Shown here one piece after another: positions 1-42,021 of a stretch of DNA of 64,000 nucleotides. Position 1 is the first letter of the stretch, and every line of letters begins with the position of its first letter. The notes beneath the pieces are model-generated. The model was not told the origin of the DNA. It made no database searches and saw only the letters and a list, made by a program, of their open reading frames with translations. Made by a program: the position numbers and the translations under genes. The stretch lies in the NCBI GenBank assembly GCA_030765065.1, contig CM060985.1, positions 1,612,001-1,676,000 on the forward strand. The letters are read 5' to 3'. The stretch is from Deroplatys truncata. Taxonomy: Eukaryota > Arthropoda > Insecta > Mantodea > Mantidae.

Positions 1-20
1 AAAGTGTAACATTTAAACTT

Positions 21-3000
21 ACGGTCATAAACATGTTCCTCCTCTTATAATGGGATTCTGTAAAGTGTAACATTCAAACTTATTGTCATGAAAATTTTCC
101 TCCTCTTATAATGGGATACTGTAGTGTAATATTTAAACTTGCTGTCATGAACATGTTCCTCCTCTTATAAAGGGATACTGTTAAGTGTAACATTTAAACT
201 TACTCTGATGAACATGTTCCTCCTTTTATAATGGGATACTGTAAAGTGTAATATATAAACTTGCTGTCATGATCATGTTCCTCCTCTTATACTGGGATAC
301 TGTAAAGTGTAATAATTAAACTTACTATCATGAACATGTTACTCTCCTTATAATGGGATACTGTAAAGTGTAATATTTAAACTTACTTTCATGAACATGT
401 TCCTCCTCTTATAATGGGATACTGTAAAGTGTAATATTTAAACTTACTGTCATGAACATGTTCCTCCTCTTAAAATGGGATACTGTTAAGTGTAACATTT
501 AAACTTACTGTCATGAGCATGTTTCTACTCTTATACTGGGTTACTGTTAAGTGTAAGATATAATCTTGCTGTCATAAACATGTTTCTACTCTTATACTAG
601 GGTACTGTTAAGTGTAACATATAATCTTGCTCCCATAAACATGTTCCTTCTCTTATACTGGGGTACTGTTAAGTGTAACATATAATCTTGCTGTCTTAAA
701 CAAGTTTCTGCTCTTATACTGGGGTACTGTTAAGTGTAACATATAATCTTGCTGTCATAAACATGTTTCTACTCTTATACTGGGGCATTGTTAAGTGTAA
801 CATATAATCTTGGTGTCATAAACATGTTCCTTCTCTTATACTGGGGTACTGTTAAGTGTAACATATAATCTTGGTGTCATAAACATGTTTCTACTCTTAT
901 ACTGGGGTACTGTTAAGTGTAACATATAATCTTGCTGTCATAAACATGTTTCTACTCTTATACTGGGGTACTGTTAAGTGTAACATATAATCTTGGTGTA
1001 TTAAACATGTTTCTACTCTTATACTGGGGTACTGTTAAGTGTAACATATAATCTTGCTGTCATAAACATGTCTCTACTCTTATACTGGGGTACTGTTAAG
1101 TGTAACATATAATCTTGGTGTCATAAAATTGTTCCTTCTCTTATACTGGGGTACTGTTAAGTGTAACATATAATCGTGCTGGCATAATCATGTTCCTTCT
1201 CTTATACTGGGGTACTGTTAACTCCAACATACAATCTTGCTGTCATAAACATGTTCCTTCTCTTATACTGGGGTACTGTTAAGTGTAACATATAATCTTG
1301 CTCTCATAAATATGTTCCTACTCTTATACTGGGGTTTTGTTAAGTGTAAGATATAATCTTGCTCTCATTAACATGCTTATACCCTTATACTGGGGTACTG
1401 TTAAGTTTAACATATAATCTTGCTGTCATAAACATGTTCCTCCTCTTTTACTGGGGTACTGTTATGTGTAACATATAATCTTGCTGTCATGAACATGTTC
1501 CTCCCCTTATATGGGATACTGTAGTGTAATATTTAAACTTGCTGTCATGAACTTGTTCCTCCTCTTATAATGGGATACAGTAGTGTAATATTTAAACTTG
1601 CTGTCATGAACATGTTCCTCCTCATATAATGGGATACAGTAGTATAATATTTAAACTTGCTGTCATGAACATGTTCCTTCTCTTATAATGAGATATGGTA
1701 AAGTTTAACATTTAAACTTACTGTCATTAACATTTTCCTCCTCTTATAATGGGATACTGTAGTGTAATATTTAAACTTGTTGTCAATAACATGTTCCTCC
1801 TCTTATAATGGTATACTGTAGTGTAATATTTAAACTTGTTGTCAATAACATGTTCCTCCCCTAATAATGGTATACTGTAGTGTAATATTTAAACTTGTTG
1901 TCAATAACATGTTCCTCCTCTTATAATGGTATACTGTAGCGTAATATTTAAACTTGCTGTCAATAACATGTTCTTCCTCTTATAATGGTATACTGTAGTG
2001 TAATATTTAAACTTGCTGTAATGAACATGTTCCTCCTCTTATAATGGGATACGGTAAAGTGTAACATTTAACCTTGCTGTCACTAACATGTTCCTCCTCT
2101 TTTAATGGTATACTGTAGTGTAATATTTAAACTTCCTGTAATGAACATGTTCCTCCTCTTATAATGGTATACTGTAGTGTAATATTTAAACTTGCTGTAA
2201 TGAACATGTTCCTCCTCTTATAATAGTACACTATAAGGTGTAATATTTAAACTTGCTGTCAGTAACATGCTGCTCCTCTTATACTGGGGTACTGTTAAGT
2301 GTAACATATAAGCTTGCTGTCATAGACATGTTCCTCCTCTTACAATGGTATACTGTAAGGTGTAACATTTAAACCCACTGTCGTGAACATGTTCCTCCTC
2401 TTATAATGGTATACTGTAAACTGTAACATTAAAACCTACTGTCATGAACATGTTCCTCTTATAATGGAATCCTGTATAGTGTAACATTTAAACCTACTGT
2501 CATAAACATGTTCCTCCTCTTATAATGGGATACTGTAAAGTTTAACATTTAACCTTGCTGAAATTAACATGTTCTTCCTCTTATAATGGGATACTGTAAA
2601 GTTTAACATTTAACCTTGCTGTCATTAACATGCTCTTCCTCTTATAATGGGATACTGTAAAATTTAACATTTAACCTTGCTGTCATAATCATGTTCCTCC
2701 TCTTATAATGGGATACTGTAAAGTTTAACATTTAACCTTGCTGTCATTAACATGTTCCTTCTCTTATAATGGGATACTGTAAAGTGTAACATTTAACCTT
2801 GCTGTCATAATCATGTTCCATCTCTTATAATGGGATACTGTAAAGTGTAACATTTAACCTTGCTGTCAAACATGTTCCTTCTCTTATAATGGGATACTGT
2901 AAAGTGTAACATTTAACCTTGCTGTCAAACATGTTCCTTCTCTTATAATGGGATACTGTAAAGTGTAACATTTAACCTTGCTGTCAAACATGTTCCTTCT

Positions 3001-6000
3001 CTTATAATGGGATACTGTAAAGTGTAACATTTAACCTTGCTGTCAAACATGTTCCTTCTCTTATAATGGGATACTGTAAAGTGTAACATTTAACCTTGCT
3101 GTCATAATCATGTTCTTCCTCTTATAATGGGATACTGTAAAGTGTAACATTTAACCTTGCTGTCATAATCATGTTCCTTCTCTTATAATGGGATACTGTA
3201 AAGTGTAACATTTAACCTTGCTGTCATAATCATGTTCCTTCTCTTATAATGGGATACTGTAAAGTGTAACATTTAACCTTGCTGTCATAATCATGTTCTT
3301 CCTCTTATAATGGGATACTGTAAAGTGTAACATTTAACCTTGCTGTCATAATCATGTTCCTTCCCTTATAATGGGCTACTGTAAAGTGTAACATTTAACC
3401 TTGCTGTCAAACATGTTCCTCCTCTTATAATGGGATACTGTAAAGTTTAACATTTAACCTTGCTGTCATTAACATGTTCTTCCTCTTATAATGGGATACT
3501 GTAAAGTGTAACATTTAACCTTGCTGTCATAAACATGTTCCTCCTCTTATAATGGGATACTGTAAAGTGTAACATTCAAACTTATTGTCATGAAAATTTT
3601 CCTCCACCTATAATGGGATACTGCAAAGTGTTACATTTAAACCTACTGTCATAAACATGTTCCGCCTCTTATAATGGGATACTGTAAAGTGTAACATTTA
3701 AACTTGCAGTCATAAACATGTTCCTCCTCTTATAATGGGATACTGTAAAGTATAACATTCAAACTTATTGTCATGAAAATTTTCCTCCTCTTATAATGGG
3801 ATACTGTAAAGTGTAACATTTAACCTTGCTGTCATAAACATGTTCCTTCTCTTATAATGGGATACTGTAAAGTGTAACCTATAACCTTGCTCTCATAAAC
3901 ATGTTCCTACTCTTATACTGGGGTTTTGTTAAGTGTAACATATAATCTTGCTCTCATAAACATGCTTCTAACCTTATACTGGGGTACTGTTAAGTGAAAC
4001 ATATAATCTTGCTGTCATTAACATATTCCTCCTCTTATACTGGGGTACTCTTAAGCGTAAACATATAATCTTGCTGTCAAAAACATGTTCCTCCTCTTTT
4101 ACTGGGGTACTGTTAAGTGTAACATATAATCTTGCTGCCATTATTATGTTCCTCCCCTTATATGGGATACTGTAAAGTGTAACATTTAAACTTAGTGTCA
4201 TGAACATGTGCCTCCTCTTACAATGGGATACAGTAGTGTAATATTTAAACTTGCTGTCATGAACTTGTTCCTCCCCTTATAATGGGATACAGTAGTGTAA
4301 TATTTAAACTTGCTGTCATGAACATGTTCCTCCTCTTATAATGGGATACGGTAAAGTGTAACATTTAAACTTACTGTCATTAACATGTTCCTCATCTTAT
4401 AATGGGATAATGTAATGTAATATTTAAACTCGTTGTCAATAACATGTTCCTCCTCTTATAATGGTATACTATAGTGTAATATTTAAACTTGCTATTAATA
4501 ATGTGTTCCTCGTCTTATAATGGGATACTGTAGTGTAATATTTAAACTTGTTGTCAATAACATGTTCCTCCTCTTATAATGGTATACTGTAGTGTAATAT
4601 TTTAACTTGTTGTCAATAACATGTTCCTCCTCTTATAATGGTATACTGTACTGGAATACTTAAACTTGCTGTCAATAACGTGTTCCTCCTCTTATAATGG
4701 TATACTGTAGTGTAATATTTAAACTTGCTGTAATGAACGTGTTCCTCCTTTTATAATGGGATACGGTAAAGTGTAACATTTAACCTTGCTGTCATTAACA
4801 TGTTCCTCCTCTTATAATGGTATACTGTAGTCTAATATTTAAACTTGTTGTCAATAACATGTTCCTCCTCTTATAATGGTATACTGTAGTGTAATATTTA
4901 AACTTGCCTTAATGAACATGTTCCTCCTTTTATAATGGGATACTGTAAAGTGTAACATTTAACCTTGCTGTCAGTAACATGTTCCTCCTCTTATAATGGT
5001 ATACTGTAGTGTAATATTTAAACTTGTTGTCAATAACATGTTCCTCCTCTTATAATGGTATACTGTAGTGTAATATTTAAACTTGTTGTCAATAACATGT
5101 TCCTCCTCTTATAATGGTATACTGTAGTGTAATATTTAAACTTGCTCTCAATAACATGTTCCTCCTCTTATAATGGTATACTGTAGTCTAATATTTTAAC
5201 TTGTCAATAACATGTTCCTTCTCTTATAATGGTATACTGTAGTGTAATATTTAAACTTGCTGTAATGAACATGTTCCTCCTCTTATAATGGGATACGGTA
5301 AAGTGTAACATTTAACATTGCTGTCATTAACATGTTCCTCCTCTTATAATGGTATACTGTAGTGTAATATTTAAATTTGCTGTAATGAACATGTTCATTC
5401 TCTTATAATGGGATACGGTAAAGTGTAACATTTAACCTTGCTGTCATTAACATGTTCCTCCTCTTACAATGGTATACTGTAAGGTGTAATACTTAAACTT
5501 GCTGCCATTAACATGTTCATCCTCTTATAATAGTATACTGTAAAGTGTAACATTTCTACCTACTGTCGTGAACATGTTCCTCCTCTTATAATGGTATACT
5601 GTAAGGTGTAATACTTAAACTTGCTGCCATTAACATGTTCGTCCTCTTATAATACTATACTGTAAAGTGTAACATTTTTACCTACTGTCGTGAACATGTT
5701 CCTCCTCTTATAATGGTATACTGTAAAGTGTAACATTTAAACCTACTGTCATAAACATGTTCCTCCTCTTATAATGGGATACTGTAAAGTTTAACATTTA
5801 ACCTTGCTGTCATAAACATGTTCCTCCTCTTATAATGGGATACTGTAAAGTTTAACATTTAACCTTGCTGTCATAAACATGTTCCTTCTCTTATAATGGG
5901 ATACTATAAAGTTTAACATTTAACCTTGCTGTCATAAACATGTTCCGCCTCTTATAATGGGATACTGTAAAGTGTAACATTTAAACTTGCAGTCATAAAC

Positions 6001-8636
6001 ATGTTCCTCCTCTTATAATGGGATACTGTAAAGTGTAACATTCAAACATATTGTCATGAAAATTTTCCTCCTCTTATAATGGGATACTGTAAATTGTAAC
6101 ATTTAACCTTGCTGTCATAAACATGTTCCTCCTCTTATATTGGGATACTGTAAAGTGTAACATTTAAACTTGCAGTCATAAAAATGTTCCTCCTCTTATA
6201 ATGGGATACTGTAAAGTGTAACATTCACACTTATTGTCATGAACACATTCCTCCTTTTATAATGGGATACTGTAAACTGTAATATTTAAACTTACTGTCA
6301 TGAACATGTTCCTCCTCTTATAATGGGATACTGTAAAGTGTAATATTTAAACTTACTGTCATGAACATGCTGCTCCTCTTATAATGGGATACTATCAGGT
6401 GTAACATTTAAATTTACTAGCATGAACATGTTTCTACTCTTATAGGGTACTGTTAAGTGTAACATATAATCTTGCTGTCATAAACATGTTTCTACGCTTA
6501 TACTGGGGCACTGTTTAGTGTAACATATAATCTTGCTGTCTTAAACATGTTTCTACTTTTATACTGGGGTACTGTTAAGTGCAACATATAATCTTGCTGT
6601 CATAAACATGTTTCTACTCTTATACTGCGGTACCGTTAAGTGTAACATATAATCTTGCTCTCATAAACATATTCCTACTCTTATACTGGGGTTTTGTTAA
6701 GTGTAACATATAATCTTGCTCTCATAAACATTCTTCTAACCTTATACTGGGGTACTGTTAAGTGTTACATATAATCTTGCTGTCATTAACATGTTCCTCC
6801 TCTTATACTGGGGTACTCTTAAGCGTAACATATAATCTTCCTGTCATGAGCATGTACCTCCTCTTATACTGGACTACTGTTACGTGTAACATATAATCTT
6901 GCTGTCATAAACATGTTCCTCCTCTTTTACTGGGGTACTGTTAAGTGTAACATATAATCTTGCTGCCATTATCATGTTCCTCCCCTTATATGGGATACTG
7001 TAAAGCGTAACATTTAAACTTAGTGTCATGAACATGTTCCTCCTCTTACAATGGGATACAGTAGTGTAATATTAAAACTTGCTGTCATGAAAATGTTCCT
7101 CCTCTTATAATGGGATACAGTAGTGTAATATTTAAACTTGCTGTCAAGAACTTGTTCCTCCTCTTATAATGGGATACAGTAGTGTATTTTTAAACTTGCT
7201 GTCATGAACATGTTCCTCCTCTTATAATGGGATACGGTAAAGTGTAACATTTAAACTTACTGTCATTAACATGCTCCTCATCTTATAATGGGATATTGCA
7301 ATGTAATATTTAAACTTGCTGTCATGAACTTGTTCCTCCTCTTATAATGGGATACAGTAGTGTAATATTTAAACTTGCTGTCATGAACATGTTCCTCCTC
7401 TTATAATGGGATACGGTAAAGTGTAACATTTAAATTTACTGTCATTAACATGCTCCACATCTTATAATGGGATATTGCAATGTAATATTTAAACTTGTTG
7501 TCAATAACATGTTCCTCGTCTTATAATGGTATACTGTAGTGTAATATTTAAACTTGCTGTCAATAACGTGTTCCTCCTCTTATAATGGGATACTGTAGTA
7601 TAATATTTAAATTTGTTGTCAATAACAATTTCCTCCTCTTATAATGGTATACTGTAGTGTAATATTTAAACTTGTTGTCAATAACATATTCCTCCTCTTA
7701 TAATGGTATACTGTAGTGTAATATTTAAACTTACTGTCAATAATGTGTTCCTCCTCTTATAATGGTATACTGTAGTGTAATATTTAAACTTGTTGTCAAT
7801 AACATGTTCCTCCTCTTATAATGGTATACTGTAGTGTAATATTTAAACTTGCTGTAATGAACATGTTCCTCTTTTTTATAATGGGATACTGTAAATTGTA
7901 ACATTTAACCTTGCTGTCAATAACATGTTCCTCCTCTTATAATGGTATACTGTAGTGTAATTTTTAAACTTCTTGTCATTAACATGTTCCTCCTCTTATA
8001 ATGGTATACTGTAGTGTAATATTTAAACTTGCTGTCAGTAACATGCTGCTACTCTTATACTGGGGTACTGTTAAGTGTAACATATAATCTTGCTGTCATA
8101 AACATGTTCCGCCTCTTTTACTGGGGTACTGTTAAGTGTAACATATAATCGTGCTGCCATTATCATGTTCCTCCCCTTATATGGGATACTGTAAAGTGTA
8201 AAATTTAAACTTAGTGTCATGAACATGTTCCACCTCTTATAATGGGATACAGTACTGTAATATTTAAACTTCTGTCATAAACATGTTCCTCCTCTTATAA
8301 TGAAATACTGCAAAGTGTAACATTTAAACCTACTGTCATAAACATCTTCCTCCTCTTATAATGGTATACTGTAAAGTGTAACATTTAAACCTACTGTCAT
8401 AAACATGTTCCTCCTCTTATAATGGGATACTGTAAAGTGTAACATTTAAACCTACTGTCATAAACATGTTCCTCCTCTTATAATGGTATACTGTAAAGTG
8501 TAACATTTAAACCTACTGTCATAAACATGTTCCTCCTCTTATAATGGTATAATGTAAAGTGTAACATTTAAACCTTCTGTCATTAACATGTTCCTCCTCT
8601 TATAATGGGATACTGTAAAGTGTAACATTTAAACTT
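21..8636. repeat. Higher-order repeat copy A (8,616 bp)
   Basis: The marker ACGGTCATAAACATG occurs at 21 and next at 8637, and a second marker (GGGTTACTGTTAAGTGTAAG) recurs at the same 8,616-bp spacing (541 and 9157 for its TTACTG). Between the markers the order of variant monomers is the same in copy A and copy B. It includes rare variants such as CATGAAAATTTTCC, GTGTATTAAACATG and CATGCTTATACCC. The copy holds roughly 140 monomers. It also contains internal, less similar sub-blocks, each marked by a CTCCCCTTATATGGG monomer near 1500, 4152, 6982 and 8172. Confidence 0.9.
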
Positions 8637-11600
8637 ACGGTCATAAACATGTTCCTCCTCTTATATGGGGATACGATAAAGTGTAACTTTTAAACTTATT
8701 GTCATGAAAATTTTCCTCCTCTTATAATGGGATACTGTAGTGTAATATTTAAACTTGCTGTCATGAACATGTTCCTCCTCTTATAAAGGGATACTGTTAA
8801 GTGTAACATTTAAACTTACTCTGATGAACATGTTCCTCCTTTTATAATGGGATACTGTAAAGTGTAATATATAAACTTGCTGTCATGAACATGTTCCTCC
8901 TCTTATACTGGGATACTGTAAAGTGTAATAATTAAACTTACTATCATGAACATGTTACTCTCCTTATAATGGGATACTGTAAAGTGTAATATTTAAACTT
9001 ACTTTCATGAACATGTTCCTCCTCTTATAATGGGATACTGTAAAGTGTAATATTTAAACTTACTGTCATGAACATGTCCCTCCTCTTAAAATGGGATACT
9101 GTTAAGTGTAACATTTAAACTTACTGTCATGAGCATGTTTCTACTCTTATACTGGGTTACTGTTAAGTGTAAGATATAATCTTGCTGTCATAAACATGTT
9201 TCTACTCTTATACTAGGGTACTGTTAAGTGTAACATATAATCTTGCTCCCATAAACATGTTCCTTCTCTTATACTGGGGTACTGTTAAGTGTAACATATA
9301 ATCTTGCTGTCTTAAACAAGTTTCTGCTCTTATACTGGGGTACTGTTAAGTGTAACATATAATCTTGATGTCATAAACATGTTTCTACTCTTATACTGGG
9401 GCATTGTTAAGTGTAACATATAATCTTGGTGTCATAAACATGTTGCTTCTCTTATACTGGGGTACTGTTAAGTGTAACATATAATCTTGGTGTCATAAAC
9501 ATGTTTCTACTCTTATACTGGGGTACTGTTAAGTGTAACATATAATCTTGCTGTCATAAACATGTTTCTACTCTTATACTGGGGTACTGTTAAGTGTAAC
9601 ATATAATCTTGGTGTATTAAACATGTTTCTACTCTTATACTGGGGTACTGTTAAGTGTAACATATAATCTTGCTGTCATAAACATGTCTCTACTCTTATA
9701 CTGGGGTACTGTTAAGTGTAACATATAATCTTGGTGTCATAAAATTGTTCCTTCTCTTATACTGGGGTACTGTTAAGTGTAACATATATTCGTGCTGTCA
9801 TAATCATGTTCCTTCTCTTATACTGGGGTACTGTTAAGTGTAACATACAATCTTGCTGTCATAAACATGTTCCTTCTCTTATACTGGGGTACTGTTAAGT
9901 GTAACATATAATCTTGCTCTCATAAATATGTTCCTACTCTTATACTGGGGTTTTGTTAAGTGTAAGATATAATCTTGCTCTCATTAACATTCTTATACCC
10001 TTATACTGGGGTACTGTTAAGTTTAACATATAATCTTGCTGTCATAAACATGTTCCTCCTCTTTTACTGGGGTACTGTTATGTGTAACATATAATCTTGC
10101 TGTCATGAACATGTTCCTCCCCTTATATGGGATACTGTAGTGTAATATTTAAACTTGCTGTCATGAACTTGTTCCTCCTCTTATAATGGGATACAGTAGT
10201 GTAATATTTAAACTTGCTGTCATGAACATGTTCCTCCTCATATAATGGGATACAGTAGTATAATATTTAAACTTGCTGTCATGAACATGTTCCTTCTCTT
10301 ATAATGAGATATGGTAAAGTTTAACATTTAAACTTACTGTCATTAACATTTTCCTCCTCTTATAATGGGATACTGTAGTGTAATATTTAAACTTGTTGTC
10401 AATAACATGTTCCTCCTCTTATAATGGTATACTGTAGTGTAATATTTAAACTTGCTGTCAATAACATGTTCTTCCTCTTATAATGGTATACTGTAGTGTA
10501 ATATTTAAACTTGCTGTAATGAACATGTTCCTCCTCTTATAATGGGATACGGTAAAGTGTAACATTTAACCTTGCTGTCACTAACATGTTCCTCCTCTTT
10601 TAATGGTATACTGTAGTGAAATATTTAAACTTGCTGTAATGAACATGTTCCTCCTCTTATAATGGTATACTGTAGTGTAATATTTAAACTTGCTGTAATG
10701 AACATGTTCCTCCTCTTATAATAGTACACTATAAGGTGTAATATTTAAACTTGCTGTCAGTAACATGCTGCTCCTCTTATACTGGGGTACTGTTAAGCGT
10801 AACATATAAGCTTGCTGTCATAGACATGTTCCTCCTCTTACAATGGTATACTGTAAGGTGTAACATTTAAACCTACTGTCGTGAACATGTTCCTCCTCTT
10901 ATAATGGTATACTGTAAACTGTAACATTAAAACCTACTGTCATGAACATGTTCCTCTTATAATGGAATCCTGTATAGTGTAACATTTAAACCTACTGTCA
11001 TAAACATGTTCCTCCTCTTATAATGGGATACTGTAAAGTTTAACATTTAACCTTGCTGAAATTAACATGTTCTTCCTCTTATAATGGGATACTGTAAAGT
11101 TTAACATTTAACCTTGCTGTCATTAACATGTTCTTCCTCTTATAATGGGATACTGTAAAATTTAACGTTTAACCTTGCTGTCATAATCATGTTCCTCCTC
11201 TTATAATGGGATACTGTAAAGTTTAACATTTAACCTTGCTGTCAGTAACATGTTCCTTCTCTTATAATGGGATACTGTAAAGTGTAACATTTAACCTTGC
11301 TGTCATAATCATGTTCCATCTCTTATAATGGGATACTGTAAAGTGTAACATTTAACCTTGCTGTCAAACATGTTCCTTCTCTTATAATGGGATACTGTAA
11401 AGTGTAACATTTAACCTTGCTGTCAAACATGTTCCTTCTCTTATAATGGGATACTGTAAAGTGTAACATTTAACCTTGCTGTCATAATCATGTTCCATCT
11501 CTTATAATGGGATACTGTAAAGTGTAACATTTAACCTTGCTGTCAAACATGTTCCTTCTCTTATAATGGGATACTGTAAAGTGTAACATTTAACCTTGCT

Positions 11601-14600
11601 GTCAAACATGTTCCTTCTCTTATAATGGGATACTGTAAAGTGTAACATTTAACCTTGCTGTCAAACATGTTCCTTCTCTTATAATGGGATACTGTAAAGT
11701 GTAACATTTAACCTTGCTGTCATAATCATGTTCTTCCTCTTATAATGGGATACTGTAAAGTGTAACATTTAACCTTGCTGTCATAATCATGTTCCTTCTC
11801 TTATAATGGGATACTGTAAAGTGTAACATTTAACCTTGCTGTCATAATCATGTTCCTTCTCTTATAATGGGATACTGTAAAGTGTAACATTTAACCTTGC
11901 TGTCATAATCATGTTCTTCCTCTTATAATGGGATACTGTAAAGTGTAACATTTAACCTTGCTGTCATAATCATGTTCTTCCTCTTATAATGGGATACTGT
12001 AAAGTGTAACATTTAACCTTGCTGTCAAACATGTTCCTTCTCTTATAATGGGATACTGTAAAGTGTAACATTTAACCTTGCTGTCATAATCATGTTCCTT
12101 CTCTTATAATGGGATACTGTAAAGTGTAACATTTAACCTTGCTGTCATAATCATGTTCTTCCTCTTATAATGGGATACTGTAAAGTGTAACATTTAACCT
12201 TGCTGTCATAATCATGTTCCTTCCCTTATAATGGGATACTGTAAAGTGTAACATTTAACCTTGCTGTCAAACATGTTCCTCCTCTTATAATGGGATACTG
12301 TAAAGTTTAACATTTAACCTTGCTGTCATTAACATGTTCTTCCTCTTATAATGGGATACTGTAAAGTGTAACATTTAACCTTGCTGTCATAAACATGTTC
12401 CTCCTCTTATAATGGGATACTGTAAAGTGTAACATTCAAACTTATTGTCATGAAAATTTTCCTCCACCTATAATGGGATACTGCAAAGTGTTACATTTAA
12501 ACCTACTGTCATAAACATGTTCCGCCTCTTATAATGGGATACTGTAAAGTGTAACATTTAAACTTGCAGTCATAAACATGTTCCTCCTCTTATAATGGGA
12601 TACTGTAAAGTGTAACATTCAAACTTATTGTCATGAAAATTTTCCTCGTCTTATAATGGGATACTGTAAAGTGTAACATTTAACCTTGCTGTCATAAACA
12701 TGTTCCTTCTCTTATAATGGGATACTGTAAAGTGTAACATATAACCTTGCTCTCATAAACATGTTCCTACTCTTATAATGGGATACTGTAAAGTGTAACA
12801 TTCAAACTTATTGTCATGAAAATTTTCCTCCTCTTATAATGGGATACTGTAAAGTGTAACATTTAACCTTGCTGTCATAAACATGTTCCTTCTCTTATAA
12901 TGGGATACTGTAAAGTGTAACATATAACCTTGCTCTCATAAACATGTTCCTACTCTTATACTGGGGCTTTGTTAAGTGTAACATATAATCTTGCTCTCAT
13001 AAACATGCTTCTAACCTTATACTGGGGTACTGTTAAGTGAAACATATAATCTTGCTGTCATTAACATGTTCCTCCTCTTATACTGGGGTACTCTTAAGCG
13101 TAACATATAATCTTGCTGTCAAAAACATGTTCCTCCTCTTTTACTGGGGTACTGTTAAGTGTAACATATAATCTTGCTGCCATTATTATGTTCCTCCCCT
13201 TATATGGGATACTGTAAAGTGTAACATTTAAACTTAGTGTCATGAACATGTTCCTCCTCTTACAATGGGATACAGTAGTGTAATATTTAAACTTGCTGTC
13301 ATGAACTTGTTCCTCCCCTTATAATGGGATACAGTAGTGTAATATTTAAACTTGCTGTCATGAACATGTTCCTCCTCTTATAATGGGATACGGTAAAGTG
13401 TAACATTTAAACTTACTGTCATTAACATGTTCCTCATCTTATAATGGGATAATGTAATGTAATATTTAAACTCGTTGTCAATAACATGTTCCTCCTCTTA
13501 TAATGGTATACTATAGTGTAATATTTAAACTTGCTATTAATAATGTGTTCCTCGTCTTATAATGGGATACTGTAGTGTAATATTTAAACTTGTTGTCAAT
13601 AACATGTTCCTCCTCTTATAATGGTATACTGTAGTGTAATATTTTAACTTGTTGTCAATAACATGTTCCTCCTCTTATAATGGTATACTGTACTGGAATA
13701 CTTAAACTTGCTGTCAATAACGTGTTCCTCCTCTTATAATGGTATACTGTAGTGTAATATTTAAACTTGCTGTAATGAACGTGTTCCTCCTTTTATAATG
13801 GGATACGGTAAAGTGTAACATTTAACCTTGCTGTCATAAACATGTTCCTCCTCTTATAATGGTATACTGTAGTCTAATATTTAAACTTGTTGTCAATAAC
13901 ATGTTCCTCCTCTTATAATGGTATACCGTAGTGTAATATTTAAACTTGCCTTAATGAACATGTTCCTCCTTTTATAATGGGATACTGTAAAGTGTAACAT
14001 TTGACCTTGTTGTCAGTAACATGTTCCTCCTCTTATAATGGTATACTGTAGTGTAATATTTAAACTTGTTGTCAATAACATGTTCCTCCTCTTATAATGG
14101 TATACTGTAGTGTAATATTTAAACTTGTTGTCAATAACATGTTCCTCCTCTTATAATGGTATACTGTAGTGTAATATTTAAACTTGCTCTCAATAACATG
14201 TTCCTCCTCTTATAATGGTATACTGTAGTCTAATATTTTAACTTGTCAATAACATGTTCCTCCTCTTATAATGGTATACTGTAGTGTAATATTTAAACTT
14301 GCTGTAATGAACATGTTCCTCCTCTTATAATGGGATACGGTAAAGTGTAACATTTAACATTGCTGTCATTAACATGTTCCTCCTCTTATAATGGTATACT
14401 GTAGTGTAATATTTAAATTTGCTGTAATGAACATGTTCCTTCTCTTATAATGGGATACGGTAAAGTGTAACATTTAACCTTGCTGTCATTAACATGTTCC
14501 TCCTCTTACAATGGTATACTGTAAGGTGTAATACTTAAACTTGCTGCCATTAACATGTTCATCCTCTTATAATAGTATACTGTAAAGTGTAACATTTCTA

Positions 14601-17600: not shown

Positions 17601-17740
17601 AGTGTAACATTTAAACCTACTGTCATAAACATGTTCCTCCTCTTATAATGGTATAATGTAAAGTGTAACATTTAAACCTTCTGTCATTAACATGTTCCTC
17701 CTCTTATAATGGGATACTGTAAAGTGTAACATTTAAACTT
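8637..17740. repeat. Higher-order repeat copy B (9,104 bp)
   Basis: This is the second copy of the long unit, aligned with copy A from the ACGGTCATAAAC marker at 8637 to the next marker at 17741. It is 488 bp longer than copy A, exactly eight 61-bp monomers. Much of the excess lies before the TAAGTGAAACATAT marker (3991 in A, 13034 in B; offset 9,043, or 427 bp = 7 x 61 more than the copy spacing). Part of it is a duplicated three-monomer block near 12690-12960. This is what unequal exchange between monomers would leave. Confidence 0.88.
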
Positions 17741-26700: not shown

Positions 26701-28650
26701 TCCCCTTATATGGGATACTGTAAAGTGTAACATTTAAACTTAGTGTCATGAACATGTTCCTCCTCTTACAATGGGATACAGTAGTGTAATATTTAAACTT
26801 GCTGTCATGAACTTGTTCCTCCCCTTATAATGGGATACAGTAGTGTAATATTTAAACTTGCTGTCATGAACATGTTCCTCCTCTTATAATGGGATACGGT
26901 AAAGTGTAACATTTAAACTTACTGTCATTAACATGTTCCTCATCTTATAATGGGATAATGTAATGTAATATTTAAACTCGTTGTCAATAACATGTTCCTC
27001 CTCTTATAATGGTATACTATAGTGTAATATTTAAACTTGCTATTAATAATGTGTTCCTCGTCTTATAATGGGATACTGTAGTGTAATATTTAAACTTGTT
27101 GTCAATAACATGTTCCTCCTCTTATAATGGTATACTGTAGTGTAATATTTTAACTTGTTGTCAATAACATGTTCCTCCTCTTATAATGGTATACTATACT
27201 GGAATACTTAAACTTGCTGTCAATAACGTGTTCCTCCTCTTATAATGGTATACTGTAGTGTAATATTTAAACTTGCTGTAATGAACGTGTTCCTCCTTTT
27301 ATAATGGGATACGGTAAAGTGTAACATTTAACCTTGCTGTCATTAACATGTTCCTCCTCTTATAATGGTATACTGTAGTCTAATATTTAAACTTGTTGTC
27401 AATAACATGTTCCTCCTCTTATAATGGTATACTGTAGTGTAATATTTAAACTTGCCTTAATGAACATGTTCCTCCTTTTATAATGGGATACTGTAAAGTG
27501 TAACATTTAACCTTGCTGTCAGTAACATGTTCCTCCTCTTATAATGGTATACTGTAGTGTAATATTTAAACTTGTTGTCAATAACATGTTCCTCCTCTTA
27601 TAATGGTATACTGTAGTGTAATATTTAAACTTGCTGTCAGTAACATGCTGCTACTCTTATACTGGGGTACTGTTAAGTGTAACATATAAGCTTGCTGTCG
27701 TAAACATGTTCCTCCTCTTACAATGGTATACTGTAATGTGTAATATTTAAACTTGCTGCCATTAACATGAAGGTCCTCTTATAATGGTATACTGTAAAGT
27801 GTAACATTTAAACCTACTGTCGTGAACATGTTCCTCCTCGTATAATGGGATACTGCAAAGTGTAACATTTAAACTTGCATTCATAAACATGTTCCTCCTC
27901 GTATAATGGTATACTGTAAAGTGTAACATTTAAACCTACTGTCATAAACATGTTCCTCCTTTTATAATGGGATACTGTAAAGTGTAACATTTAACCTTGC
28001 TGTCATTAACATGTTCTTCCTCTTATAATGGAATACTGTGAAGTGTAACATTTAAACTTGCTGTCTTAAACATGTTCCATCTCATATAATGGGATACTGT
28101 AAAGTGTAACTTTCAAACTTGCAGTCAACATGTTCCTCCTCTTATAATGGGATACTGTAAAGTGTAACATTTAAACTTGCTGTCCTAAACATGTTCCTCC
28201 TCTTATAATGGCACACTAAAAAGTGTAAAATCTAAACTTGCAGTCATAAACATGTTCCTCCTCTTATAATGGGATACTGCAAAGTGTAACATTTAAACCT
28301 ACTGTCATAAACATGTTCCTCCTCTTATAACGGTATAATGTAAAGTGTAACATTTAAAACTACTGTCATAAACATGTTCCTCCTCTTATAATGGGATACT
28401 GTAAAGCATAACATTTAAACTTGCAGTCATAAACATGTTCCTCCTCTTATAATGGGGTTTTGTTAAGTGTAACATATAATCTTGCTGTCATTAACATGTT
28501 CCTGCTCTTATACTGGGGTACTCTTAAGCATAACATATAATCTTGCTGTCATGAACATGTACCTCCTTTTATAGTGCGGTACTGTTAAGTGTAACATATA
28601 ATCTTGCTGTCATAAACATGTTCCTCCTCGTTTACTGGGGTACTGTTAAG
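17741..28650. repeat. Rearranged higher-order copies with 4.95-kb tandem duplication
   Basis: The region starts like copies A and B (marker at 17741; TTACTGTTAAG marker at 18261) but leaves their order near 22690, where a roughly 1-kb block absent from A and B appears. It then restarts at 23692. Three markers show a second period: CATAAACATGTCTC at 18781 and 23728, and CAGTAACATGCTGCTACT at 22691 and 27638, all 4,947 bp apart. The roughly 18.74-23.69 kb segment is therefore duplicated in tandem as about 23.69-28.65 kb, with only small differences such as a 3-bp deletion in the second copy near 28124. Confidence 0.85.
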
Positions 28651-31600
28651 TATAACATATAATCTTGCTACCATTATCATGTTCCTCCCCTTATATAGGA
28701 TACTGTAAAGTGTAACATTTAAACTTAGTGTCATGAACATGTTCCTCTTATAATGGAATCCTGTAAAGTGTAACATTTCAACCTACTGTCATAAACATGT
28801 TCCTGCTCTTATAATGGTATACTGTGAAGTGTAACATTTAAACCTACTGTCGTGAACATTTTCCTCCTCTTATAATGGGATACTGCAAACTGTAACATTT
28901 AAACTTGCAATCATAAACATGTTCCTCCTCTTATAATGGTATATTGTAAAGTGTAACATTTAAACCTACTGTCATAAACATGTTCCTCCTCTTATAATGG
29001 GATACTGTAAAGTGTAACATTTAAACTTATTGTGATGAAAATTTTCGTGCTCTTATAATGGGATACTGTAGTGTAATATTTAAACTTGCTGTCATGAACA
29101 TGTTCCTCCTCTTATAAAGGGATACTGTTAAGTGTAACATTTAAACTTACTCTGATGAACATGTTCCTTCTCTTATACTGGGGTACTGTTATGTGTAACA
29201 TACAATCTTGCTGTCATAAACATGTTCCTTCTCTTATACTGGGGTAGTGTTAAGTGTAACATATAATCTTACTGTCATAAACAAGTTCCTTCTCTTATAC
29301 TGGGGTACTGTTAAGTGTAACATATAATCTTGCTGTCTTAAACATGTTTCTACTCTTATACTGGGGTACTGTTAAGTGTAACATATAATCTTGCTGTCAT
29401 AAACATGTTCCTACTCTTATACTGTGGTACTGTTAAGTGTAACATATAATCTTGCTGTCATAAACATGTTCCTCCTCTTATACTGGGGTACTGTTAAGCG
29501 TAACATATAATCATGCTGTCATGAACATGTTCCTCCTCTTATAAAGGGATACTGTTAAGTGTAACATTTAAACTTACTCTCATGAACATGTTCCTCGTCT
29601 TATAATGGGATACGTTAAAGTGTAATATTTAAACTTACTGTCAGGAACATGTTTCTACTCTTATACTAGGTACTGTTAAGTGTAACATATAATCTTCCTG
29701 TCATAAACATGTTTCTACTCTTATACTAGGGTACTGTTAAGTGTAACAGATAATCTTGCTCTCATAAACATGTTCCTCCTCTAGTACTGGGGTACTGTTA
29801 AGTGTAACATATAATCTTGCTGTCATAAACATGTTCCTACTCTTATGCTGGGGTACTGTTAAGTGTAACATATAATCTTGCTGTCATAAACATTTTCTAC
29901 TCTTATACTGGGGTACTGTTAAGTGAAAGATATAATCTTGCTCTCATAAACCTGTTCCTATTTTATACTGGGGTTTTGTTAAACGTAACATATAATCTTG
30001 CTGTCATAAACATGTTTCTACTCCTATACTGGGGTACTGTTAAGTGTTACATATAATCTTGCTCTCATAAACATGCTTCTACCCTTATACTGGTGTACTG
30101 CTAAGTTTAACATATAATCTTGCTGTCATAAACATGTTTCTACTCTTATACTGGGGTACTGTTAAGTTTAACATATAATCTTGCTCTCATAAACATGCTT
30201 CTACCCTTATACTGGGGTACTGTTAAGTGTAACATATAATCTTGCTGTCATAAACATGTTTCTACTCTTATACTGGGGTACTGTTAAGTGTAACATATAA
30301 TCTTGCTCTCATAAACATGTTCCTACTCTTTTACTGGGGTACTGTTAAGTGTAAGATATAATCTTGCTGCCATTATCATGTTCCTCCCCTTATATGGGAT
30401 ACTGTAAAGTGTAACATTTAAACTTAGTGTCATGAACATGTTCCTCCTCATATAATGGGATACAGTAGTATAATATTTAAACTTGCTGTCATGAACATGT
30501 TCCTCCTCTTATAATGGGATATGGTAAAATGTAACATTTAAACTTACTGTCATTAACATTTTCCTCCTCTTATAATGGGATACTGTAGTGTAATATTTAA
30601 ACTTCTAGTCAATAACATGTTCCTCCTCTTATAATGCTATACTGTAGTGTAATATTTAAACTTGTTGTCAATAACATGTTCCTCCTCTTATAATGGTATA
30701 CTGTAGTGTAATATTTAAACATGTTGTCAATAACATGTTCCTCCTCTTATAATGGTATACTGTAGTGTAATATTTAAACTTGCTCTCAATAACATGTTCC
30801 TCCTCTTATAATGGTATACTGTAGTCTAATATTTTAACTTGTTGTCAATAACATGTTCCTCCTCTTATAATGGTATACTGTAGTGTAATATTTAAACTTG
30901 CTGTAATGAACATGTTCCTCCTCTTATAATGGGATACGGTAAAGTGTAACATTTAACATTGCTGTCATTAACATGTTCCTCCTCTTATAATGGTATACTG
31001 TAGTGTAATATTTAAATTTGCTGTAATGAACATGTTCCTTCTCTTATAATGGGATACGGTAAAGTGTAACATTTAACCTTGCTGTCATTAACATGTTCCT
31101 CCTCTTACAATGGTATACTGTAAGGTGTAATACTTAAACTTGCTGCCATTAACATGTTCATCCTCTTATAATAGTATACTGTAAAGTGTAACATTTATGC
31201 CTACTGTCGTGAACATGTTCCTCCTCTTATAATGGTATACTGTAAGGTGTAATACTTAAACTTGCTGCCATTAACATGTTCGTCCTCTTATAATACTATA
31301 CTGTAAAGTGTAACATTTTTACCTACTGTCGTGAACATGTTCCTCCTCTTATAATGGTATACTGTAAAGTGTAACATTTAAACCTACTGTCATAAACATG
31401 TTCCTCCTCTTATAATGGGATACTGTAAAGTTTAACATTTAACCTTGGTGTCATTAACATGTTCTTCCTCTTATAATGGGATACTGTAAAGTTTAACATT
31501 TAACCTTGCTGTCATTAACATGTTCCTCCTCTTATAATGGGATACTGTAAAGTGTAACATTTAACCTTGCTGTCATAAAAATGTTCCTCCTCTTATAATG

Positions 31601-34600
31601 GGATACTGTAAAGTTTAACATTTAACCTTGCTGTCATAAACATGTTCCTCCTCTTATAATGGGATACTGTAAAGTTTAACATTTAACCTTGCTGTCATAA
31701 ACATGTTCCGCCTCATATAATGGAATACTGTAAAGTTTAACATTTAACCTTGCTGTAATAAACATGTTCCTCCTCTTATAATGGGATACTATAAAGTTTA
31801 ACATTTAACCTTGCTGTCATAAACATGTTCCGCCTCTTATAATGGGATACTGTAAAGTGTAACATTCAAACATATTGTCATGAAAATTTTCCTCCTCTTA
31901 TAATGGGATACTGTAAATTGTAACATTTAACCTTGCTGTCATAAACATGTTCCTCCTCTTATAATGGGATACTGTAAAGTGTAACATTTAAACTTGCAGT
32001 CATAAAAATGTTCCTCCTCTTATAATGGGATACTGTAAAGTGTAACATTCAAACTTATTGTCATGAACACATTCCTCCTTTTATAATGGGATACTGTAAA
32101 CTGTAATATTTAAACTTACTGTCATGAACATGTTCCTCCTCTTATAATGGGATACTGTAAAGTGTAATATTTAAACTTACTGTCATGAACATGCTCCTCC
32201 TCTTATAATGGGATACTATCAGGTGTAACATTTAAATTTACTAGCATGAACATGTTTCTACTCTTATAGGGTACTGTTAAGTGTAACATATAATCTTGCT
32301 GTCATAAACATGTTTCTACGCTTATACTGGGGCACTGTTAAGTGTAACATATAATCTTGCTGTCTTAAATATGTTTCTACTCTTATACTGGTGTAGTGTT
32401 AAGTGTAACATATAATCTTGCTGTCATAAACATGTTCCTACACTTATACTGGGGTACTGTTAAGTGTAACATATAATCTTGCTGTCATAAACATGTTTCT
32501 ACTTTTATACTGGGGTACTGTTAAGTGCAACATATAATCTTGCTGTCATAAACATGTTTCTACTCTTATATTGCGATACCGTTAAGTGTAACATATAATC
32601 TTGCTCTCATAAACATATTCCTACTCTTATACTGGGGTTTTGTTAAGTGTAACATATAATCTTGCTCTCATAAACATGCTTCTAACCTTATACTGGGGTA
32701 CTGTTAAGTGTTACATATAATCTTGCTGTCATTAACATGTTCCTCCTCTTATACTGGGGTACTCTTAAGCGTAACATATAATCTTGCTGTCATTAGCATG
32801 TACCTCCTCTTATACTGGACTACTGTTACGTGTAACATATAATCTTGCTGTCATAAACATGTTCCTCCTCTTTTACTGGGGTACTGTTAAGTGTAACATA
32901 TAATCTTGCTGCCATTATCATGTTCCTCCCCTTATATGGGATACTGTAAAGCGTAACATTTAAACTTAGTGTCATGAACATGTTCCTCCTCTTACAATGG
33001 GATACAGTAGTGTAATATTAAAACTTGCTGTCATGAACATGTTCCTCCTCTTATAATGGGATACAGTAGTGTAATATTTAAACTTGCTGTCATGAACTTG
33101 TTCCTCCTCTTATAATGGGATACAGTAGTGTAATATTTAAACTTGCTGTCATGAACATGTTCCTCCTCTTATAATGGGATACGGTAAAGTGTAACATTTA
33201 AACTTACTGTCATTAACATGCTCCTCATCTTATAATGGGATATTGCAATGTAATATTTAAACTTGTTGTCAATAACATGTTCCTCGTCTTATAATGGTAT
33301 ACTGTAGTGTAATATTTAAACTTGCTGTCATGAACATGTTCCTCCTCTTATAATGGGATACTGTAGTATAATATTTAAACTTGTTGTCAATAACATGTTC
33401 CTCCTCTTATAATGGTATACTGTAATGTAACATTTAAACTTACTGTCATTAACATGCTCCTCATCTTATAATGGGATATTGCAATGTAATATTTAAACTT
33501 GCTGTCATGAACTTGTTCTTCCTCTTATAATGGGATACAGTAGTGTAATATTTAAACTTGCTGTCATGAACATGTTCCTCCTCTTATAATGGGATACGGT
33601 AAAGTGTAACATTTAAACTTACTGTCATTAACATGTTCCTCATCTTATAATGGGATATTGCAATGTAATATTTAAACTTGTTGTCAATAACATGTTCCTC
33701 GTCTTATAATGGTATACTGTAGTGTAATATTTAAACTTGCTGTCAATAACGTGTTCCTCCTCTTATAATGGGATACTGTAGTATAATATTTAAACTTGTT
33801 GTCAATAACATGTTCCTCCTCTCATAATGGTATACTGTAGTGTAATATTTAAACTTGTTGTCAATAACATGTTCCTCCTCTTATAATGGTATACTGTAGT
33901 GTAATATTTAAACTTGCTGTCAATAACATGTTCCTCCTCTTATAATGGTATACTGTAGTGTAATATTTAAACTTGTTGTCAATAACATGTTCCTCCTCTT
34001 ATAATGGTATACTGTAGTGTAATATTTAAACTTGCTGTAATGAACATGTTCCTCTTTTTTATAATGGGATACTGTAAAGTGTAACATTTAACCTTGCTGT
34101 CAATAACATGTTCCTCCTCTTATAATGGTAAACTGTAGTGTAATTTTTAAACTTGTTGTCATTAACATGTTCCTCCTCTTATAATGGTATACTGTAGTGT
34201 AATATTTAAACTTGCTGTCAGTAACATGCTGCTACTCTTATACTGGGGTACTGTTAAGTGTAACATATAATCTTGCTGTCATAAATATGTTCTGCATCTT
34301 TTACTGGGGTACTGTTAAGTGTAACATATAATCGTGCTGCCATTATCATGTTCCTCCCCTTATATGGGATACTGTAAAGTGTAAAATTTAAACTTAGTGT
34401 CATGAACATGTTCCACCTCTTATAATGGGATACAGTAGTGTAATATTTAAACTTCTGTCATAAACATGTTTCTCCTCTTATAATGAAATACTGCAAAGTG
34501 TAACATTTAAACCTACTGTCATAAACATGTTCCTCCTCTTATAATGGTATACTGTAAAGTGTAACATTTAAACCTACTGTCATAAACATGTTCCTCCTCT

Positions 34601-34819
34601 TATAATGGGATACTGTAAAGTGTAACACTTAAACCTACTGTCATAAACATGTTCCTCCTCTTATAATGGTATACTGTAAAGTGTAACATTTAAACCTACT
34701 GTCATAAACATGTTCCTCCTCTTATAATGGTATAATGTAAAGTGTAACATTTAAACCTACTGTCATTAACATGTTCCTCCTCTTATAATGGGATACTGTA
34801 AAGTGTAACATTTAAACTT
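28651..34819. repeat. Junction block and partial higher-order copy E
   Basis: From about 28650 to 30800 the monomers form a mosaic. A short stretch (about 29030-29160) matches the beginning of a higher-order unit, and a long run of the GGGGTACTGTTAAG class follows (about 29160-30370). From about 30800 the order again follows the second half of copies A and B (compare GTAGTCTAATATTTTAAC near 30825 with the same variant near 5187 and 14227), up to the next marker at 34820. The first half of a standard copy is missing here. Confidence 0.75.
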
Positions 34820-37800
34820 ACGGTCATAAACATGTTCCTCCTCTTATATGGGGATACGATAAAGTGTAACTTTTAAACTTATTGTCATGAAAATTTTCCT
34901 GTTCTTATAATGAGATACTGTAGTGTAATATTTAAACTTGCTGTCATGAACATGTTCCTCCTCTTATAAAGGGATACTGTTAAGTGTAACATTTAAACTT
35001 ACTCTAATGAACATGTTCCTCCTTTTATAATGGGATACTGTAAAGTGTAATATATAAACTTGCTGTCATGAACATGTTCGTCCTCTTATACTGGGATACT
35101 GTAAAGTGTAATAATTAAACTTACTGTCATGAACATGTTACTCTCCTTATAATGGGATACTGTAAAGTGTAATATTTAAACTTACTTTAATGAACATGTT
35201 CCTCCTCTTATAATGGGATACTGTAAAGTGTAATATTTAAACTTACTGTCATGAACATGTTCCTCCTCTTAAAATGGGATACTGTTAAGTGTAACATTTA
35301 AACTTACTGTCATGAGCATGTTTCTACTCTTATACTGGGTTACTGTTAAGTGTAAGATATAATCTTGCTGTCATAAACATGTTTCTACTCTTATACTAGG
35401 GTACTGTTAAGTGTAACATATAATCTTGCTCTCATAAACATGTTCCTTCTCTTATACTGGGGTACTGTTAAGTGTAACATATAATCTTGCTGTCTTAAAC
35501 ATGTTTCTGCTCTTATACTGGGGTACTCTTAAGTGCAACATATAATCTTGCTGTCATAAACATGTTTCTACTCTTATACTGGGGCATTGTTAAGTGTAAC
35601 ATATAATCTTGGTGTCATAAACATGTTCCTTCTCTTATACTGGGGTACTGTTAAGTGTAACATATAATCTTGGTGTCATAAACATGTTTCTACTCTTATA
35701 CTGGGGTACTGTTAAGTGTAACATATAATCTTGCTGTCATAAACATGTTTCTACTCTTATACTGGGGTACTGTTAAGTGTAACATATAATCTTGGTGTCA
35801 TAAAATTGTTCCTTCTCTTATACTGGGGTACTGTTAAGTGTAACATACAATCTTGCTGTCATAAACATGTTCCTTCTCTTATACTGGGGTACTGTTAAGT
35901 GTAACATATAATCTTGCTGTCATAATCATGTTCCTTCTCTTATACTGGGGTACTGTTAAGTGTAACATACAATCTTGCTGTCATAAACATGTTCCTTCTC
36001 TTATACTGGGGTACTGTTAAGTGTAACATATAATCTTGCTCTCATAAATATGTTCCTACTCTTATACTGGGGTTTTGTTAAGTGTAAGATATAATCTTGC
36101 TCTCATAAACATGCTTATACCCTTATACTGGGGTACTGTTAAGTTTAACATATAATCTTGCTGTCATAAACATGTTCCTCCTCTTTTACTGGGGTACTGT
36201 TATGTGTAACATATAATCTTGCTGTCATGAACATGTTCCTCCCCTTATATGGGATACTGTAGTGTAATATTTAAACTTGCTGTCATGAACTTGTTCCTCC
36301 TCTTATAATGGGATACAGTAGTGTAATATTTAAACTTGCTGTCATGAACATGTTCCTCCTCACATAATGGGATACAGTAGTATAATATTTAAACTTGCTG
36401 TCATGAACATGTTCCTTCTCTTATAAAGAGATATGGTAAAGTTTAACATTTAAACTTACTGTCATTAACATTTTCCTCCTCTTATAATGGGATACTGTAG
36501 TGTAATATTTAAACTTGTTGTCAATAACATGTTCCTCCTCTTATAATGGTATACTGTAGTGTAATATTTAAACTTGTTGTCAATAACATGTTCCTCCTCT
36601 AATAATGGTATACTGTAGTGTAATATTTAAACTTGTTGTCAATAACATGTTCCTCCTCATATAATGGGATACAGTAGTATAATATTTAAACTTGCTGTCA
36701 TGAACATGTTCCTTCTCTTATAATGAGATATGGTAAAGTTTAACATTTAAACTTACTGTCATTAACATTTTCCTCCTCTTATAATGGGATACTGTAGTGT
36801 AATATTTAAACTTGTTGTCAATAACATGTTCCTCCTCTTATAATGGTATACTGTAGAGTAATATTTTAACTTGTTGTCAATAACATGTTCCTCCTCTTAT
36901 AATGGTATACTGTAGTGTAATATTTAAACTTACTGTAATGAACATGTTCCTCCTCTTATAATGGGATACGGTAAAGTGTAACATTTAACCTTGCTGTCAT
37001 TAACATGTTCCTCCTCTTTTAATGGTATACTGTAGTGTAATATTTAAACTTGCTGTAATGAACATGTTCCTCCTCTTATAATGGGATACGGTAAAGTGTA
37101 ACATTTAACATTGCTGTCATTAACATGTTCCTCCTCTTATAATGGTATACTGTAGTGTAATATTTAAACTTGGTGTAATGAACATGTTCCTCCTCTTATA
37201 ATAGTACACTATAAGGTGTAATATTTAAACTTGCTGTCAGTAACATGCTGCTCCTCTTATACTGGGGTACTGTTAAGTGTAACATATAAGCTTGCTGTCA
37301 TAGACATGTTCCTCCTCTTACAATGGTATACTGTAAGGTGTAATATTTAAACTTGCTGCTATTAACATGATCGTCCTCTTATAATGGTATACTGTAAAGT
37401 GTAACATTTAAACCTACTGTCGTGAGCATGTTCCTCCTCTTATAATGGTATACTGTAAACTGTAACATTAAAACCTAGTGTCATGAACATGTTCCTCTTA
37501 TAATGGAATCCTGTATAGTGTAACATTTAAACCTACTGTCATAAACATGTTCTTCCTCTTATAATGGGATACTGTAATGTTTAACATTTAACCTTGCTGT
37601 CATAATCATGTTCCTCCTCTTATAATGGGATACTGTAAAGTTTAACATTTAACCTTGCTGTCATAATCATGTTCCTTCTCTTATAATGGGATAGTGTAAA
37701 GTGTAACATTTAACCATGCTGTCATTAACATGTTCCTTCTCTTATAATGGGATACTGTAAAGTGTAACATTTAACCTTGCTGTCATAGTCATGTTCCTTC

Positions 37801-38040
37801 TCTTATAATGGGATACTGTAAAGTGTAACATTTAACCTTGCTGTCAAACATGTTCCTTCTCTTATAATGGGATACTGTAAAGTGTAACATTTAACCTTGC
37901 TGTCAAACATGTTCCTTCTCTTATAATGGGATACTGTAAAGTGTAACATTTAACCTTGCTGTCATAATCATGTTCCTTCTCTTATAATGGGATACTGTAA
38001 AGTGTAACATTTAACCTTGCTGTCATAATCATGTTCCTTC
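34820..38040. repeat. Partial higher-order repeat copy F
   Basis: The copy starts with the ACGGTCATAAAC marker at 34820, carries the TTACTGTTAAG marker at 35340 (the same 520-bp offset as in A, B and C), and follows the order of copy A for about 3.2 kb. It includes some local monomer duplications, for example the repeated CATGTTCCTCCTCATATAATG block near 36655. It stops within the run of CTGTCAAACATG and CATAATCATG monomers at about 38040. Confidence 0.8.
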
Positions 38041-39008
38041 TCTTATACTGGGGTACCGTTAAGCGTAACATATAATCATGCTGTCATGAACATGTTCCTC
38101 CTCTTATACTGGGGTACTGTTAAGTGTAACATATAATCTTGCTGTCATAAACATGTTCCTCCCCTTATACTGGGATACTGTTAAGTGTAACACATAATCT
38201 TGCTGTCATAAACATGTTCCTCCTCTTATACTGTTATACTGTTAAGTGTAACATATAATCTTGTTGTTATAAACATGTTCCTTCTCTTATACTGTCGTAC
38301 TGTTAAGTGTAACATATAATCTTGCTGTCATAAACATGTTCCTTCTCTTATACTGGGGTACTGTTAAGTGTAACATTTAAACTAACTGTCATAAACATGT
38401 TACTCCTCTTATACTGTCGTACTGTTAAGGTAACATATAATCTTACTGTCATAAACATGTTACTCCTCTTTTACTGGGGTACTGTTAAGTGTAACACATA
38501 ATCTTGCTGTCATAAACATGTTCCTCCTCTTATACTGTTATACTGTTAAGTGTAACATATAATCTTGTTGTTATAAACATGTTCCTTCTCTTATACTGTC
38601 GTACTGTTAAGTGTAACATATAATCTTGCTGTCATAAACATGTTCCTCCTCTTATACTGGGGTACTGTTAAGTGTAACATTTAAACTAACTGTCATAAAC
38701 ATGTTCCTCCTCTTATACTGGGGTACTGTTAAGTGTAACATTTAAACTAACTGTCATAAACATGTTACTCCTCTTATACTGTCGTACTGTTAAGGTAACA
38801 TATAATCTTACTGTCATAAACATGTTCCTCCTCTTTTACTGGGGTACTGTTAAGTGTAACATTTAAACTTGCTGACATGAACATGTTCCTCCTCTTATAC
38901 TGGGATACTGTTAAGTGTAACATATAATCTTGCTGTCATAAACATGTTGCTCCTCTTATACTGGGATACCGTTAAGTGTAACATATAATCTTGCTGTCAT
39001 AAACATGT
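38041..39008. repeat. Degenerate right edge of the 61-bp satellite
   Basis: The last kilobase has monomers not seen elsewhere, with CTGTTATACTG and CTGTCGTACTG variants, and follows a small period of its own. The TTGTTGTTATAAAC variant occurs at 38261 and 38565, 304 bp apart, or about five monomers. The array stops abruptly after CATAAACATGTAGTG at about 39008, and unrelated AT-rich sequence begins. Confidence 0.85.
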
Positions 39009-41000: not shown

Positions 41001-41011
41001 CATCCTGTGTA

Positions 41012-41965: not shown

Positions 41966-42021
41966 CAACATTAAATCCTCCAAGCAACTTGAATTTTTCC
42001 TGGTAAAGCACAAACTCATTT

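Follow-up and report, generated by a model that had tools for sequence, protein, structure and literature searches.

Among large human tandem arrays surveyed in 2008, the 61-bp repeat array at Xp22.33 (18 kb) shows a complex pattern of irregular higher-order repeats, 1.6 and 2.5 kb long, kilobase units are seen in HsatII (~5.8 kb) and in the GAATG arrays (3.36 kb and 3.6 kb), and some of the large-unit arrays lie within introns (PMC2588610). A unit of 52 alpha-satellite monomers is reported from human chromosome 21 (PMC12385485), which at 171 bp per monomer amounts to ~8.9 kb. The Drosophila Y genes kl-3 and kl-5 have gigantic introns filled with satellite DNA (PMC6508621), and intron gigantism is suspected in the large genomes of grasshoppers (PMC7754599). 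These statements, and the comparisons made with them here, draw on the accessible parts of the sources cited.

The locus analyzed here is an array of 59- to 61-bp monomers. It is like the Xp22.33 array in its irregular kilobase higher-order structure, but it measures 95 kb, has blocks of 3 to 9 kb, and belongs to another organism; the two monomers were likened by length alone, and their equal length is taken as coincidence. The unit length in base pairs is similar to that of the alpha-satellite 52-mer, and in both cases monomers that are ~18% apart form nearly identical copies. However, alpha satellite is centromeric and has 171-bp monomers in a fixed unit, whereas the present units are irregular and intronic. 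As in kl-3 and kl-5, a long satellite array occupies an intron of a protein-coding gene, here a predicted one. In contrast, the Drosophila introns, which are Y-linked, hold short simple repeats over megabases and their transcription has been shown, while the present array consists of 95 kb of 59- to 61-bp monomers with a block structure. Both traits, an irregular higher-order structure at the kilobase scale and an intron filled with satellite, have been described before, and it is the setting here that is uncommon; no description of this array or of a similar 61-bp intronic satellite, in insects or otherwise, was found in the accessible parts of the open-licence literature. The locus matters because a gap-free stretch here records how a satellite grew step by step, in its phase-preserving joints, nested blocks of differing likeness, a copied transposable element that serves as a marker, and decayed edges. 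With the array placed between predicted exons, what such growth costs in transcription and splicing could be measured outside the Drosophila Y. The locus also cautions against assuming that a satellite met in a raw window is centromeric.

Monomers and block structure of the 61-bp array

The window, as we call the whole 64,000-nucleotide stretch analyzed, corresponds to C11:1612001-1676000, C11 being a 200-Mb contig in an assembly of 4.29 Gb and 818 contigs; positions without this prefix are window positions. TRF reported 1..39008 (+ strand) as a single array with a consensus of 61 bp, 646.6 copies, and 88% matches. This is the right-hand 39.0 kb of an array that extends over C11:1555612-1651008 (95,397 bp), so the window covers just 39 kb of it. 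The array sequence is gap-free, with no N in the 286 kb fetched around it. Wrap-around alignment divided 1-39008 into 647 monomers, of which 305 are distinct; 425 have a length of 61 nt and 160 a length of 59 nt. Monomers are 82.9% identical between random pairs and 88.2% between neighbors. The entire array comprises 1,568 monomers, and in it 59-nt monomers (834) outnumber 61-nt monomers (598). Nearly all (1,563/1,568) are 56 to 62 nt long, indicating that the joints between blocks keep the monomer phase. For 74.8% of all monomers in the entire array, an identical monomer is found more than 20 monomers away. No sharp conserved box was found in the monomer (means of 0.81 to 0.94 per ten columns, 594 distinct monomers), and a coding repeat was ruled out because 61 nt is not a multiple of 3.

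In a search of the whole genome with a consensus trimer, there were 255 matches, and all 150 of the matches listed fall in this array. The search skips common words and is not exhaustive: the listing covered 150 matches and not the other 105, and 0 of the 150 lie in C11:1610000-1649700, through which the array certainly extends; for a 600-base query, its own place was likewise absent from the matches listed. The 61-bp satellite is perhaps confined to this locus. A DNA transposon of 1,712 bp, which has inverted ends and is flanked by TA on either side, is inserted within one 61-bp monomer (C11:1605644-1607355), and pieces of it resemble, by eye, an HTH of the pogo type and a PHD finger. In 93.7 kb of the array (C11:1555620-1651008), AATAAA occurs 0 times on the gene-sense strand and 4 times on the opposite strand. 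This strand bias is a hint only, as the monomers are not independent and the independent ones are too few.

An earlier note on this DNA had described rare monomer variants recurring in the same order at 8,616 and 9,104 bp, with markers at 21, 8637, 17741, and 34820, and had read from them a higher-order unit of some 140 to 150 monomers. These marker positions proved exact, as the 25-mer that begins at 21 is unique to those four sites within 1-39008; from 30 bases upward the copy at 21 departs from the other three. Both off-diagonals were also recovered, the one at 8,616 bp starting ~300 bp left of the window. Unit pairs are 97 to 99% identical, but the strongest off-diagonal in the window lies at 4,947 bp, a spacing that the note does not mention, and the last two markers are 17,079 bp apart. 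Ranked by the recurrence of exact 100-mers, the commonest offset is 4,947 bp, followed by 17,720, 9,104, 9,042, 22,667, and 8,616 bp. A stable unit of 140 to 150 monomers did not hold up, as the successive intervals of 8,616, 9,104, and 17,079 bp amount to 143, 151, and 283 monomers, with unit starts at monomers 0, 143, 294, and 577 of the window.

The four unit copies are all on the + strand. U1 (1..8616; 143 monomers) and U2 (8617..17720; 151 monomers) are 98.1% identical over 8,487 aligned bases, the larger gaps between them (59 to 183 nt) being approximately whole monomers. U3 (17721..34799) reaches 283 monomers through an internal duplication and ~2.6 kb lacking a close copy (~28128-30700), whose chunks have best matches of just ~91 to 96%. 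The duplication is a tandem one at 4,947 bp, in which 18535..23180 and 23482..28127 (both +) match over 4,646 bp at 99.16% without a gap. The partial copy U4 (34800..39008) is 97.1% identical to U1 over its first 3 kb (1-2986 versus 34800-37964), after which best matches fall to ~89 to 93% towards the array edge. U1 is also 99.3% identical to the first part of U3 (1-5099 versus 17721-22700) and 98.5% identical to its last part (5201-8616 versus 30842-34799). In these pairwise unit alignments, gaps of more than 3 bases measure 59 to 236 nt, again about whole multiples of the monomer. Ungapped segments gave 99.1% for 1-2986 versus 17721-20706, 99.1% for 7897-10545 versus 17001-19649, and 98.7% for 1-1929 versus 8617-10545.

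When four copies were aligned together, identities were 99.4% for U1-U3a, 98.3% for U3a-U3b, 96.8% for U1-U2, and 95.5% for U2-U3b. The lower values come partly from diverged patches, and U2 has extra monomers that are absent from the other copies. As U1 is nearer to U3 than to the adjacent U2, a simple ladder of neighbor-to-neighbor duplications does not fit. Gapped self-BLAST was uninformative for block structure, as the 61-bp register swamps the signal. Collinear runs of monomers (≤2 differences) were compared with shuffled orders: in the window the longest run was 57 monomers at lags of at least 20 monomers and 35 at lags of 138 to 156 monomers (8.5 to 9.3 kb), whereas no run exceeded 4 when all monomers were shuffled (200 times) or 7 when they were shuffled inside blocks of ten (also 200 times). 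For the entire array, the longest run was 133 monomers, whereas 30 shuffled orders reached 6 and 30 orders shuffled within blocks reached 12.

The left half of the array has block periods of its own, at 5,071, 3,182, 6,189, and 6,776 bp, and many of its ten-monomer chunks are identical. Blocks spaced at 5,071 bp are 99.75% alike in ~2.6 copies. A single regular unit of 8.6 to 9.1 kb for the whole array was therefore rejected, this spacing being limited to the right part while other periods occur elsewhere. The array is a patchwork of kilobase tandem block duplications and has no single regular higher-order repeat. As in a higher-order repeat, copies are much more alike (97 to 99%) than the monomers within a unit (83%); a fixed number and order of monomers, regular through the array, was not found, and several nested or overlapping block periods, as in irregular VNTR or satellite arrays, were. 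The view that whole blocks were amplified recently is well supported, given 97 to 99% identity between unit copies and 83% between random monomers. The accompanying claim that the unit is far longer than most described stands by monomer number but not clearly by base pairs, considering the 52-monomer alpha-satellite unit (~8.9 kb) and HsatII (~5.8 kb). If rates were equal, the differences of 1 to 3% suggest that the blocks of the right half are older than the 5,071-bp blocks.

We additionally examined the entire array in bins of 60 monomers, counting in each bin the monomers that differ at one site at most from a copy located over 20 monomers away. These made up 47 to 52% at the left edge and 12% at the right end, and 93 to 100% in most other bins. 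The fewer such copies at the array edges agree with the prediction of unequal exchange. Lower values were also obtained at the border between the array halves (52 to 57%, ~1602-1610 kb), in one interior bin (62%, from 1639674, i.e., window ~28.1-30.7 kb), and in two bins near the right end (87 and 75%).

Predicted host intron and neighboring satellites

The 61-bp array appears to lie inside an intron of a predicted ABCA-type (lipid-transporter-like) gene on the - strand. Two predicted exons of this transporter gene, A1 (53498..53576) and A2 (53260..53413; acceptor TTGCAG, donor GTATGT), are separated by an 84-bp intron, and a third, exon B (C11:1554573-1554759), is located between the 60-bp array and the 61-bp array. 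The A2-B intron (C11:1554760-1665259) has 110,500 bp and is mostly 61-bp array; its remainder to the right of the array (39009..53259) contains an 81-bp array as well as a non-LTR retroelement with RVT_1. A1, A2, and B form one open frame of 140 codons with no stop or frameshift and with six canonical AG/GT splice ends. Their joint peptide matches the ABCA7, ABCA1, ABCA3, and ABCA4 chains (best E value, 2.2e-13) in an alignment that crosses both exon joints, and A2 plus B match PF12698 (E value, 1.7e-16). The satellite is thus placed between exons of one gene, A2 and B being in frame and continuously aligned with ABCA proteins across 110,500 bp. We infer that this gene may be expressed, in which case the array would be transcribed with it and then removed by splicing.

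A probable further exon, C (C11:1415916-1416066), has good splice sites and a weak ABCA4 match (E value, 0.022, with a query running three residues past the donor) and no Pfam match. An exon of ~75 residues expected between B, which ends at ABCA4 residue 758, and C, which starts from 834, was not found in the part of this interval that was read by eye. The A2-B intron (110,500 bp) falls short of a megabase, as does the distance of 138,506 bp between B and the probable exon C. If exon C is right, two more arrays are also intronic: a 60-bp array (C11:1490160-1554388) to the left of the 61-bp array, with blocks at 12,687, 13,888, 11,843, and 12,266 bp that are up to 99.8% alike, and, to the left of that, a 72-bp array (C11:1425177-1489608) with blocks at 17,814, 10,775, and 28,589 bp. 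Both of these ~64-kb satellites show block duplication like that of the 61-bp array. An 85-bp array follows further left, and 81-, 103-, and 76-bp arrays lie on the right; array spans fill ~247 of the 286 kb fetched, ~17 kb of those spans being inserted elements. It is conceivable, if rather improbable, that a single ABCA-type gene carries satellites of 64 to 95 kb in one intron after another, all of them enlarged through one kind of kilobase block duplication, and that its fast-changing intron length could set the time or level of transcription.

The clearest evidence for the copying of blocks as blocks is an element of 5.25 kb in the 72-bp array. It is present in three copies (C11:1440840-1446095, 1451615-1456869, and 1469429-1474671) that sit at the array's own offsets, and it has reverse-transcriptase-like frames and was named non-LTR-like by eye. 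Compared together with part of their satellite flanks, the copies differ at 5 of 5,800, 30 of 5,800, and 27 of 5,801 sites (99.5 to 99.9% alike), and three element copies with near-identical satellite flanks indicate a single insertion that was copied together with the surrounding satellite. A clear relationship was seen between the 60- and 72-bp monomers, whose alignment scored 49 versus a maximum of 31 in 300 shuffles. The 72-bp monomer looks like the 60-bp monomer plus 12 bp, and the two arrays adjoin. A common origin of the seven satellites was rejected, as only this pair is clearly related among 21 pairs; the 61- versus 81-bp (P ~0.02) and 81- versus 103-bp (P ~0.04) comparisons, being among the same 21 pairs, were not counted as evidence. 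Coding repeats in the 72-bp array were considered as well, since long open stretches occur in several frames and on both strands (the longest of 1,289 amino acids), and were discounted because a stop-poor 72-nt unit yields such frames by itself.

Proposed growth of the array and rival explanations

We consider it likely that an intronic satellite of 59- to 61-bp monomers grew to 95.4 kb by repeated tandem block duplication, most simply by unequal homologous exchange. Blocks of ~3 to 9 kb would have been duplicated in tandem again and again and joined in monomer phase, through unequal homologous exchange between sister chromatids or homologues or through break-induced replication that re-entered out of register. 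Point changes, and single monomers gained or lost afterwards, would have brought the copies to ~1 to 3% apart and more in patches. The 8.6- to 9.1-kb spacing would then be the trace of one block lineage in the right half, with other blocks in the left half. Phase-keeping joints, gaps of about whole monomers, the tandem direct order, the decayed edges, and the copied element all fit unequal homologous exchange. Unequal exchange and break-induced replication are both named for satellites in the accessible part of a review (PMC8122249). The recombination route is one that we infer from the sequence pattern, and these data do not separate unequal exchange, break-induced replication, and gene conversion. 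A point against the proposed scheme is that the interior stretch at ~28.1 to 30.7 kb also has no close copies.

Some of the blocks are very alike, with 99.75% at the 5,071-bp spacing and 99.91% between copies of the 5.25-kb element, as might be seen if two haplotypes or mis-joined reads had been placed end to end in the assembly. However, unit copies in the window are ~1 to 3% apart and differ by whole monomers, and intervals of 143, 151, and 283 monomers are not easily explained by a false join of haplotypes. With no N in the 286 kb and a like pattern in three different arrays, an assembly artefact is very unlikely. A canonical centromere-type higher-order repeat, in which a fixed unit of 140 to 150 monomers is homogenized as a unit as in alpha satellite, would account for four unit starts and for units 97 to 99% alike pairwise that are built of ~83%-alike monomers. 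It would not account for the varying unit length or for the different periods found elsewhere in the array. The array is, moreover, located between exons ~1.6 Mb along a 200-Mb contig, and no second site appeared among the 150 matches listed of 255, in a search that is visibly incomplete. We regard this explanation as highly improbable.

A different doubt concerns the gene rather than the array. The exons may be what is left of a dead ABCA copy located in heterochromatin rich in satellites, in which case the array would not be part of a working gene; array spans taking up ~247 of 286 kb and the exon not found between B and C would agree with this. Against such decay, the three exons have kept 140 codons free of stops and frameshifts, six canonical splice ends, and an alignment running through both joints, making a dead copy unlikely. 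Growth by block duplication within an intron of a predicted gene is the reading that we prefer.

Sequence to the right of the array

The retroelement in the right part of the intron has open frames at 45585-48544 on the - strand, with RVT_1 in one frame, and the 81-bp array (49243-50624; 17 copies, 97%) is beside it. No match to Rfam was obtained in 38900-64000, and the tRNA scan gave none. A subtelomeric position was rejected, as tandem TTAGG is absent from the first 6 kb of C11 and the window is 1.6 Mb in. Beyond the exons, a near-perfect inverted repeat at 58164-58414 has 117-nt arms that are 97% complementary with a spacing of 17 nt. A frame of the retroviral aspartyl protease type follows at 58610-59113 on the - strand, with RVP and RVP_2 at or just above the cutoffs. 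The 103-bp array starts at 59556 and runs through the window end at 64000 to C11:1681708 (10.2 kb, 96%), and beyond it the 76-bp array extends from C11:1686488 to at least C11:1689999.
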